A stretch of DNA of 46,244 nucleotides from positions 43,675-89,918 of the forward strand of contig JAHDGK010000005.1 of NCBI GenBank assembly GCA_020627685.1. The letters are read 5' to 3'. Position numbers and translations under genes: made by a program. Positions 15,316 through 17,889 of the stretch are shown here, piece by piece (position 1 is the stretch's first letter; each line of letters opens with the position of its first letter). The stretch is from Granulosicoccus sp. GTDB taxonomy: Bacteria; Pseudomonadota; Gammaproteobacteria; Granulosicoccales; Granulosicoccaceae. The notes beneath the pieces were generated by a model, which saw nothing but the letters and a program-made list of their open reading frames with translations, was not told the DNA's origin and made no database searches.

Positions 15316-16146
15316 CTAAGAAAATATTCCGGGTAACGGGAACACTGAGGGGTCCATCCCTGTAGCCTGAAGAATAGAGGGTGCCGCCCGGCATTGGTCT
15401 AAGACCTCATCAGCGGCAGGCAGATTCTTTTGCTGGCCAAAATAATAAAAAGCAACGTCGCGGGTTAAGTCTTCATTGCCTCCGTGGTGGCCATCGGTGT
15501 TCATGCCATGATCTGACGTAACGAATACTTGGTATCCCTGCTGCAACCACTTGGGCATGATGCGAGCTAGCGCGTTATCGGTATGCCAGGCTTGTTTTCG
15601 ATACTCCGCAGAGTCTGAGGTATATAAGTGTCCTAGTGTATCTCCGGCGCACATGTGTATCAGCATATAGTCCGGGCTAAATTTTCTGACAAGGTTATTG
15701 GCCTGCGCACATAAGTCTATATCTGCTGGCTGTACAGGGTTGGCACGTGAATACGCTTCCATAGAATAGTAACGACCATGTTGAATAGCCATGCTCTCGT
15801 CATCGATTTCTATGTCCTCCAGCATGTTGTAAGTGCGGCCGCAATAGAGTTCAAAGAAGAAACTATGAGCGACAGCTGCAGTTACACGACCCTGCTCGTG
15901 AAGTAGCTGGAAAATATTAGGCACTGACGACGCTCTCATCGCTTCGTTCGATAGTATGCCGTGCTCTAGCGGGGTGAGTCCGGTATGCAGTGTTTCGTAC
16001 AATGGTCCGGACAAGCTGGGTAAGCAGGCTTGCATCTTCCAACGATGCGCCATACCCGCTTCAACACTGGCTTCCAAATAGCCGCACTGAGACAACATGG
16101 TGTCGTAGCCCACACCGTCGACGATAATCAGAATAGCTTTTTGCAT
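15316..16146 (-). CDS. Small alkaline-phosphatase-superfamily hydrolase, third gene of the tmp operon
   Basis: 276 residues, short for the superfamily (phosphonoacetate hydrolase and NPP enzymes exceed 380). Metal-site motifs of the fold are visible: VDGVGYDT near the N-terminus (Asp10), a candidate nucleophile Ser in CLPSLSGPLYETL, then TGLTPLEHGI, AGDTLGH (Asp and His), TSDHGM (Asp and His) and the final HHGG His. There is no signal peptide, so it is cytoplasmic. It starts 4 nt after the TmpB-like gene stops, so the two are almost surely co-translated. It probably cleaves a phosphate or phosphonate ester, for example releasing 2-trimethylaminoethylphosphonate from a conjugate; the substrate is inferred from context only. 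Confidence 0.85.
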   Translation of the reverse strand: MQKAILIIVDGVGYDTMLSQCGYLEASVEAGMAHRWKMQACLPSLSGPLYETLHTGLTPLEHGILSNEAMRASSVPNIFQLLHEQGRVTAAVAHSFFFELYCGRTYNMLEDIEIDDESMAIQHGRYYSMEAYSRANPVQPADIDLCAQANNLVRKFSPDYMLIHMCAGDTLGHLYTSDSAEYRKQAWHTDNALARIMPKWLQQGYQVFVTSDHGMNTDGHHGGNEDLTRDVAFYYFGQQKNLPAADEVLDQCRAAPSILQATGMDPSVFPLPGIFS

Positions 16147-16150
16147 GGTT

Positions 16151-16738
16151 TTATTGACCCGCCGAATGTGTATCCACGATCGATTGAATCATGGGAATGT
16201 AATAAGTAAAGGGTGCTGTTTCTAACCCTGCTATTTTTCCGCGGTCATCAAATTTTCTGACTTTAATGATGGCGTCCAGGTTCGGATTCTGTTCGAAAGC
16301 TGCAACCTCCGTGGTATTCATGGGGCCACCTTGAAGGTTCAATGAATGAACTGAAGCTTCACTGAGTTGGTCGTAATATTCAGGGCTGGTGGCACAAAGA
16401 TATCGCTTTGCCGCTACATGATATCTAACGCAGTCGCTTATCAGAGATGGGAAGAATGCTTCCAGGACTTCTGCACCTGCGTTTTCATGCCAGCGATCCT
16501 CCGTGTCGTCCATCGAGAACATGCCAAACTCGCTAGTAAAATGGCCGATGTCGTGCAGAAGGGTAGCAACAATAATTTCATCGCTTTCGCCCTGATTAGC
16601 AGCGAAATGTGCTCCTTGCAACATGTGCTCTGCCATGGTCACAGGTTCGCCTAAGTATTCCTCGTGCCCGCGCCGATGGAATATATCGGCGATAAATTCA
16701 ACGATATTATTTGAGCTTAGTTCAGCGTGTTTGTTCAT
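16151..16738 (-). CDS. tmpB: HD-domain mixed-valent diiron oxygenase, TmpB/PhnZ family
   Basis: 195 residues, close to PhnZ. The HD metal ligands are His38, His62-Asp63, His84, His107 and Asp164 or Asp165, with His66 in LLHDIGH. The Y-x-x-E pair (Tyr28, Glu31 in EEYLGEPVTMAEHMLQ) corresponds to the substrate-gating Tyr/Glu known from PhnZ. The PhnZ/TmpB oxygenases cleave the C-P bond of an alpha-hydroxyphosphonate with O2. Because the neighbour is a gamma-butyrobetaine-hydroxylase-like TmpA rather than PhnY, the likely reaction is (R)-1-hydroxy-2-(trimethylamino)ethylphosphonate to glycine betaine plus phosphate. It is spaced 5 nt from the tmpA-like gene and 4 nt from the phosphatase-superfamily gene. 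Often misannotated as a generic HD phosphohydrolase. Confidence 0.85.
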   Translation of the reverse strand: MNKHAELSSNNIVEFIADIFHRRGHEEYLGEPVTMAEHMLQGAHFAANQGESDEIIVATLLHDIGHFTSEFGMFSMDDTEDRWHENAGAEVLEAFFPSLISDCVRYHVAAKRYLCATSPEYYDQLSEASVHSLNLQGGPMNTTEVAAFEQNPNLDAIIKVRKFDDRGKIAGLETAPFTYYIPMIQSIVDTHSAGQ

Positions 16739-16743
16739 AGTCG

Positions 16744-17889
16744 CTAGGCTTTTTGCTGGTTTAACACTGAAAGGTGAGACAGCAAACTGTCCTTATCGGC
16801 ATAGCAGCCTTGCAACCAACGAGATCCTTGATCAGCTGCATAACCCGCACGGCCGTGCAGTACGCGCGTGTTGTCGACAATGAACGAGTCACCTGGGTCA
16901 AGCTTGAACTCTATTGCCAGGTTCGGATCGTTGATAATTTCTCCGAATTGACGATAGGCAGCATAGAAGGCCTCCATTTTTTCAAAAGGTACATCGGTGA
17001 TGGGTGCTGCGCTTCTATTGTTAAAGCGTATTCCGATGAGTTCTCCGTCAGGAGCAAGTTCTATCATGGGGCGCTTGGATTGTAAGTGGACATCGGCAGA
17101 CCCGTTGTAATCGAATCGTGCGCAGTGTTGTGTGAGCAACTCAAAGCCTGTTGGGTTTAGATCCCTTAGCCTTTGGGCTGCATGGAATCCATCTACCAGC
17201 TGATTCTCCCCACCTTGAGCAGAATTTTCCAAACAATAAAGTATCTGTAGCGTAGGGACGGGGTCGCGGTACGGGTTATCAGTATGTGCCTGTAAGCCCA
17301 AACCCGTGTACGCCAGATTGCTCGGGTTAATTTCTGTGCGGACCTCGAACCATCGTCCGTAGTTGGTTTCTCGAACATAGCCAAAGCATTCGGCCAGCTC
17401 CATCAATGCGCCGTCAATGCATGGACCCTGATTGAGCTTTGCAAAACCGTAGCGTTGAACGGCTGCGAGCCAATCTCTGCGAGACGCATTGTCCGCAAGA
17501 ACTTGTGCATGGTCGAAACTTACCGCCTGCAGGCTTTGCGTGCTATCCCAGAGTGTCAGCCCGTCGGATGTCCAACCCGGTGGAGGTACCTTGCGGGAAT
17601 CATAGCAATGTTGCTTCAGCCAGCTTGCAGGAAAATGGCATTGTGTCTGATCGGGAGAAAACCGAACGCGAAGCGCACCTTCCGCAAGCGTCGCCTCAGA
17701 CAGAGTTGTATCGGCGGGAATGTCGCTCAGCGTTATTAGACGTTGGCCGTTGCTGCTAGAACGGGTTTGCTCATCTAAAGAATTGTCTCGTAACCAAATT
17801 GCGTGAAAGCGAGAGGTGGATTCATCATTCCAGATAAGGCGAACGCCTTTTCCGCCGTCCACTATTTCAGCAGAAGTGAGTTTGCTCAT
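16744..17889 (-). CDS. tmpA: 2OG/Fe(II) dioxygenase, TmpA-like (gamma-butyrobetaine hydroxylase family)
   Basis: 381 residues from the Met at 17889; an in-frame Met at 17994 would add 35 poorly conserved-looking residues, so the start is uncertain. An N-terminal DUF971-like domain ([20 protein letters not shown]) is followed by a TauD-type jelly roll. Iron ligands are His202 and Asp204 in [14 protein letters not shown] and His345 in [12 protein letters not shown], with a downstream Arg for 2-oxoglutarate. Gamma-butyrobetaine hydroxylases have a Cys cluster after WLRDN that binds zinc; here that stretch is DSLDEQ-like without Cys. Together with the adjacent TmpB-like gene this points to 2-trimethylaminoethylphosphonate hydroxylation rather than carnitine synthesis. 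First gene of the minus-strand operon. Confidence 0.82.

Follow-up and report, generated by a model that had tools for sequence, protein, structure and literature searches.

In the window, a stretch of 46,244 nucleotides from Granulosicoccus sp. (contig JAHDGK010000005.1 of assembly GCA_020627685.1), three genes lie on the minus strand in the order tmpA-tmpB-AP. The first, tmpA (16744-17889), encodes a 381 aa Fe/2-oxoglutarate enzyme of the 2-trimethylaminoethylphosphonate (TMAEP) dioxygenase type; tmpB (16151-16738) encodes a 195 aa HD-domain diiron protein of the (R)-1-hydroxy-2-trimethylaminoethylphosphonate oxygenase type. The third gene (15316-16146) specifies a 276 aa member of the alkaline phosphatase superfamily, hereafter AP, which resembles NPP-type phosphodiesterases and for which we propose a role as an ester hydrolase ahead of TmpA. 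Gaps of only 5 nt (tmpA-tmpB) and 4 nt (tmpB-AP) separate the genes, as a first-pass annotation of this DNA had already read. A second in-frame ATG for tmpA exists at 17994; since the NCBIfam match starts only at residue 18 of the protein read from 17889, that start is adequate.

The identities given to TmpA and TmpB in that annotation were borne out, as both proteins exceed the curated cut-offs of their NCBIfam equivalog models (NF049936, 564.1 bits against 400, and NF049941, 336.1 bits against 300, respectively). The nearest solved structure is 6npb for TmpA (526 bits, with gamma-butyrobetaine dioxygenase at 207) and 6npa for TmpB (294 bits, with PhnZ at 105); the gamma-butyrobetaine dioxygenase model TIGR02409 is likewise over its cut-off for TmpA (433 against 415). 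By motif, TmpA carries the HxD...H triad at H202, D204 and H345, which we take to be the iron ligands, whilst TmpB displays the H...HD...H...H...D pattern (H38, H62/D63, H84, H107 and D164). The predicted Tyr28/Glu31 gating pair of TmpB is also present, aligning with the YxxE loop of Leisingera TmpB, which is numbered Y30/E33 in the accessible passages of PMC8177086. As such, the two window proteins probably hydroxylate TMAEP and then cleave the C-P bond of hydroxy-TMAEP, these being the reactions known for their homologues.

AP matches PF01663 with 61.9 bits against a gathering cut-off of 23, and an AlphaFold2 model built from the window protein and 29 relatives has a mean pLDDT of 96.3 and a pTM of 0.94. 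In this model the first beta strand already comprises residues 3-9, leaving no room for a signal peptide, so that AP is apparently the small cytoplasmic enzyme of this superfamily that had been described at first pass. The best solved fold matches are NPP-type phosphodiesterases, namely Xac NPP (2gsn; Z 28.9, rmsd 2.4 A over 249 of the 276 residues), together with ENPP7 (Z 28.2) and ENPP6 (Z 25.5), which are phosphocholine-bound according to their PDB titles; with the monoesterase PafA at Z 25.7 and choline sulfatase at Z 24.6, the ranking within the superfamily is shallow. In an alignment of 37 rows, D10, S46, N67, D169, D212, H213 and H221 are invariant, and H173 is kept in 32, the remaining five being Chloroflexi rows with E or G; those aligned from loci L075, L083 and L090 have E there. 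Following the NPP scheme, we presume that D10, D169, H173, D212, H213 and H221 are metal ligands, S46 the nucleophile and N67 the oxyanion Asn; H221 lies only 8 residues past H213 and was assigned by conservation. The nucleophile region reads P-S-L-S-G-P-L. Phosphonate monoester hydrolases and sulfatases have a C/S-x-P-x-R formylglycine motif, which AP lacks, and membership of that group was rejected on this ground. By Pfam score, fold and active-site residues, we are confident in viewing AP as NPP-type phosphodiesterase-like, with diester hydrolysis as its predicted reaction.

PhnA, a member of the same superfamily, cleaves a C-P bond directly and is a detectable relative of AP (hhalign probability 98%, 27% identity over 213 columns), raising the question of whether AP might do the same. 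The K-D-K of an annotated Leisingera PhnA (L181), which presumably contains the two lysines that serve the leaving group, aligns however with H94-S95-F96 of AP, where the residue at position 96 is aromatic in all but one of the 37 rows, and always F or Y in the 11 that make up the tmpAB-linked clade described below. The assignment of two PhnA lysines to the leaving group is found in the available passages of PMC10574752. TMAEP moreover has no carboxylate. With the Lys pair not conserved, we set PhnA-type hydrolysis aside as very improbable; the absence of PhnA from the 50 VIA rows of the structure comparison excludes nothing.

In order to establish how often AP accompanies tmpAB, we examined 51 other tmpB loci, chosen by their TmpB irrespective of AP and comprising 39 distinct loci from three draws of genomes and 12 regions from the window's own family. 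The phylum draw (398 genomes, 14 of them over the TmpB cut-off including that of the window) supplied 13 loci besides the window; a family draw around genome G468 (295 genomes, 39 with a match) supplied 30 loci, with nine matches yielding none, and five loci were common to both. From the class draw (369 genomes, three over the cut-off including the window), L003 was counted, whilst L002 had too little flank. At three of the 51 loci the sequence beyond tmpB is short (952 nt for L166, 1009 for L169 and 529 for L198). The tmpAB counts rest on tblastn. AP was present at just one of the 51, L175, where it is broken, being split over two reading frames. This result rules out AP as a universal third gene of tmpAB and indicates that the pathway does not need it. 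Among plasmids, one of five distinct tmpB loci of >60% identity has AP (Labrenzia, three records with the same match). The idea that the whole trio arrived horizontally in the window's lineage is not supported, since tmpB is common there: 15 of 48 family genomes, the window's included, have it over the cut-off. Seven of these 48 genomes encode full-length AP homologues, which are 36-38% alike and group elsewhere in the AP tree; in the four of these seven that also have tmpB (G386, G387, G398 and G406), the two genes lie on different contigs.

AP nevertheless recurs at eight other tmpAB loci, nine with the window, where it is placed directly after tmpB or one gene later. These are the Labrenzia plasmid (L040, with a 4-nt overlap at tmpB/AP), L175, and six loci from an AP genome scan with tmpA-tmpB upstream in the same order: L061 (Kiloniella), L065 (Roseibium), L067 (Mameliella), L068 (Roseovarius), L069 (Thalassovita) and L071 (Tateyamaria), the last with a broken AP whose frame stops at 104 residues. 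Taxonomically, they comprise Kiloniella, two Stappiaceae, four Roseobacteraceae and one further genome. The first-pass annotation had named a lack of co-occurrence elsewhere as a refutation of its reading; these eight loci do show co-occurrence, which fails as a general rule, AP being an uncommon, occasional accessory. Its absence from 50 of the 51 other sampled loci is what one might expect of a chance passenger in the operon, an explanation already disfavoured by the same gene order at eight other loci across several groups, and which we consider quite improbable. A second accessory, found with or without AP, is a ureidoglycolate-lyase-like gene (in L065 at 7330-7998, PF04115, 48.8 bits): a 222 aa version lies between tmpB and AP in L065, L068, L069 and L175, and it also directly follows tmpB in L141, L155, L156, L159, L163 and L167. 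In the G468 family draw it is present at 6 of the 30 loci, against 1 of 30 for AP.

To place these genes within the wider AP family, genomes were scanned with a nine-row alignment as query, which returned at least 553 relatives, the best 80 being kept as loci; a single-sequence genome scan and a viral scan found no AP relative. In a tree of 92 rows (13 of 104 were dropped, being second copies, the near-duplicates L112, L177 and L180, or the broken L071, L147 and L175), the seven intact tmpAB-linked rows fall within a single clade of 11 (support 98/85), whose other members are L062, L063, L064 and L066. Support for grouping the window with L065, L068 and L069 is an SH-aLRT of 40, and the window row carries a long-branch attraction warning, whilst L071 was assigned to the clade by its 82% identity to the Labrenzia AP rather than by the tree. 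Among the best 80 of the at least 553 relatives, tmpAB adjoins AP at 6 of the 10 loci that belong to the clade and at 0 of the 70 others, as judged within flanks that reach 8 kb at most (Fisher 7e-7, not corrected for kinship). For L062 and L066, tmpB is found elsewhere in the genome.

The tmpAB genes themselves show another pattern. On a TmpB+TmpA tree of 58 rows, the nine AP-bearing loci need eight changes, of which at least seven are forced by starred branches; shuffled labels gave a mean of 8.5, and 218 of 500 shuffles were as low as the observed value. This tree was made with a quick method, scores L071 and L175 as AP-bearing in spite of their broken genes, and takes L002 and L005 as lacking AP on 251 and 324 nt of downstream sequence; it omits L150 (excluded though not a second copy), L172 (no TmpA hit) and matches of <45% identity. 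AP-bearing loci are therefore scattered on the tmpAB tree, while the intact AP rows form one clade. Two histories would account for this, namely repeated recruitment of AP to tmpAB, or an old trio from which AP has been lost many times. Both suggest a functional link, and neither shows its nature.

Outside the clade, most of the contexts examined are ABC importers of differing types. In Rhodobacterales and Mesorhizobium, AP lies beside Opp/Dpp-type gene sets (SBP_bac_5 in L094), contexts that include a gene cluster of 33 loci, of which the L073 member is a CocE/NonD-type hydrolase; within the clade, Opp/Dpp-type genes are also found downstream of AP, at a distance of 2.8 kb in Labrenzia and 4.3 kb in Kiloniella. 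Chloroflexi combine a PhnS-like binding protein (well under cut-offs), permeases, an ATPase and AP; L083 adds PitA and a PhoU-like protein, and an MttB relative is present at 6 of 8 AP loci (L075, L081, L083, L090, L092 and L103, where the importer is 2-aminoethylphosphonate-like). A gene of the PitA-type cluster occurs at five of these six, the family model having been applied in L083. Enterococcus and a Pseudomonas aeruginosa plasmid share the arrangement binding protein-AP-permease-permease-ATPase, each with a phosphatase-like gene alongside, namely a PHP-domain gene nearby on the other strand in the former and a following HAD-IB gene in the latter. An AP homologue of ~38% identity was seen among 179 Enterococcus plasmid records, and the two of these records that were examined both contain the importer-plus-AP cassette (e.g. 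L177:7899-12490). At L070, L084, L100, L102, L109 and L179, no importer was recognised adjoining AP in the neighbour lists; such lists are rough for several GC-rich loci, where the simple open reading frame caller missed AP or gave antisense frames. The thread that we read in these contexts is that a small organophosphorus compound would be imported and then hydrolysed in the cytoplasm.

Such variety could also be taken to mean that AP is a general hydrolase of small phosphodiesters or phosphomonoesters for phosphate starvation, co-regulated with tmpAB but sharing no substrate with it. Consistent with this, 70 of the 80 scanned loci fall outside the tmpAB clade, none near tmpAB, and their contexts are mostly different importers. 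In disagreement with this, however, is the recurrence of one AP clade beside tmpAB on scattered tmpAB lineages. Furthermore, in 88 AP loci neither PhnW nor any PhnZ/TmpB-type match was found except the TmpB of the seven tmpAB loci. We regard a general hydrolase as improbable, albeit less so than a passenger. A PhnY query of the 88 loci gave two aldehyde-dehydrogenase-like matches of 28-30%.

The first-pass annotation had suggested that AP acts either before TmpA on a conjugated form of its substrate or on a side product. Nothing in our analysis supports the latter; the former fits an enzyme of NPP-type fold whose wider family occurs in importer contexts. In keeping with the observed gene order, protein families, fold, active-site residues and recurrent linkage, we propose, at a probability of roughly 0.45, that AP hydrolyses an imported TMAEP ester and so feeds TmpA. 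The substrate of AP, the direction of its step, the import and the use of the product, as we infer them, would be as follows. A small O-ester of TMAEP would be taken up, such as the glyceryl ester or that of another headgroup, derived from a phosphonolipid or a phosphono-glycan; AP would cut the ester P-O bond in the cytoplasm, using two metal ions held by the six ligands named above, S46 as nucleophile and N67 as oxyanion support. The free TMAEP would be hydroxylated at carbon 1 by TmpA, and TmpB would cleave the C-P bond to give glycine betaine and phosphate, the betaine perhaps passing to divergently encoded dehydrogenase-like and MttB-like enzymes. Somewhat more tentatively, we extend this to the clade as a whole: its members may be small cytoplasmic NPP-type enzymes dedicated to phosphonate esters, TMAEP being imported as an ester and freed inside, whilst the wider family may mark importer-coupled systems for organophosphorus esters.

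Several observations weigh against this proposal. AP is missing from nearly all other sampled tmpAB loci, including all 12 of the window's own family. Within the clade, no TmpB was found in the genomes of L063 (a metagenome-assembled genome) and L064, and the AP of L064 follows an Opp/Dpp-type importer instead. Co-occurrence at the level of whole genomes does not discriminate, since three of six genomes outside the clade also hold TmpB, one below the cut-off. The NPP, PafA and sulfatase structures score so close together (Z 24-29) that the fold is silent on a trimethylammonium substrate. Lastly, neither a natural TMAEP ester nor an assay of such an AP turned up in the openly licensed literature searched.

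The genes surrounding the operon bear on the fate of betaine and on the main rival explanation. Divergent from tmpA lies a gene for an 810 aa FAD (DAO) + GCV_T protein resembling dimethylglycine/sarcosine dehydrogenases (18038-20470, plus strand; PF01266, PF01571, PF08669), which may use the betaine product and a 38% relative of which lies directly upstream of tmpA in L068. It is followed on the same strand by an MttB-superfamily methyltransferase-like gene (20473-22008; PF06253, with TIGR02369 at 324 bits, under its cut-off of 525). On the other side of the operon, a glycine betaine/choline-type ABC importer, a candidate for the uptake step, occupies 10421-14100 of the plus strand, with a binding protein (10421-11377, PF04069), an ATPase (11477-12526, named by eye) and a permease (12523-14100; TIGR03416 at 274 bits, under the cut-off of 363). 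Together with a DDAH-like and two agmatinase-like ureohydrolase genes, these flank the operon over 9217-15155 and 18038-22947, and the surroundings appear to be an island for methylated amines and guanidino compounds. In L198 (4636-10226, genome G374), homologues of the three importer genes share a strand with tmpA-tmpB and immediately precede it, as candidates for a TMAEP importer. Farther away, at 1998-6362, are a binding protein, a fused permease and an ATPase related to the putative 2-aminoethylphosphonate importer PhnS2/PhnU2/PhnT2, all under cut-off (227/393, 275/593 and 381/458 bits). The window genome has one TmpA over the cut-off and one AP-family match, and gave no match to PhnJ.

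This betaine setting would be explained equally well if AP hydrolysed a choline phosphate ester such as glycerophosphocholine or phosphocholine, the operon then supplying betaine and phosphate from two isosteric trimethylammonium compounds. The closeness in fold of ENPP7 and ENPP6 is in agreement with this, as are the betaine/choline-type importer and the MttB- and dehydrogenase-like genes near the operon, a GbdR-like regulator (234 bits, under the cut-off of 480) adjoining the AP of L066, and the MttB-like genes of the Chloroflexi loci. Set against these are the lack of any choline dehydrogenase in a scan of 24 of the 33 window open reading frames of ≥150 aa and, above all, the identity of the recurrent direct partner, as tmpAB has known chemistry on a C-P compound and not on phosphate esters. 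Only that partnership separates a choline ester from a TMAEP ester as the substrate, and we judge the former unlikely, whilst ranking it ahead of the other alternatives.

The operon bears on the form in which TMAEP occurs in the environment and on how phosphonates are released from their esters. With a single clade recurring next to tmpAB, the AP gene is a concrete candidate for a phosphonate-ester enzyme, and would tell in which chemical form TMAEP is met. Alkylphosphonate esters occur in marine polysaccharides, and an alkaline-phosphatase-like enzyme has been postulated for cutting them; the accessible passages of PMC5649143 name PhoD-type and phosphonate monoester hydrolase genes in this role, and the esters they describe carry methyl- and hydroxyethylphosphonate, not TMAEP. 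A cytoplasmic AP could meet only small imported esters. Moreover, we take PhoD-type and phosphonate monoester hydrolases to be families other than that of AP.

Among known systems, the closest to the operon is TmpA/TmpB of Leisingera caerulea (6npb and 6npa), which the window proteins resemble in passing the curated cut-offs, in gene order and in motif residues. There, tmpAB is described as a two-gene operon (available passages of PMC10574752), to which the window adds a third gene after tmpB; it differs from many other tmpAB loci also in the dehydrogenase-like gene divergent to tmpA, where these have a LysR gene. A third tmp gene was not found described in the openly licensed literature searched, and the passages seen of PMC8316502 and PMC11203657 name none. 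The oxidative PhnY*/PhnZ pathway follows the same two-step logic (available passages of PMC8177086) but acts on 2-aminoethylphosphonate, PhnZ being a weaker match to the window TmpB than TmpB of L. caerulea. With PhnA, AP shares its superfamily, detectable homology and a phosphonate operon, and differs in having H-S-F for K-D-K and 276 aa as opposed to 416. With Xac NPP, ENPP6 and ENPP7 it shares the fold, the nucleophile position, the Asn 21 residues farther on and the D/H ligands, whose roles we assume to be the same, whereas it is shorter (276 aa against 382-393 residues), only 18-20% identical, apparently cytoplasmic and, where Xac NPP has Thr, equipped with Ser as nucleophile. As far as these searches go, the AP clade is thus an uncharacterised part of a known superfamily, and the operon is that of the known TmpAB pathway with one gene added.

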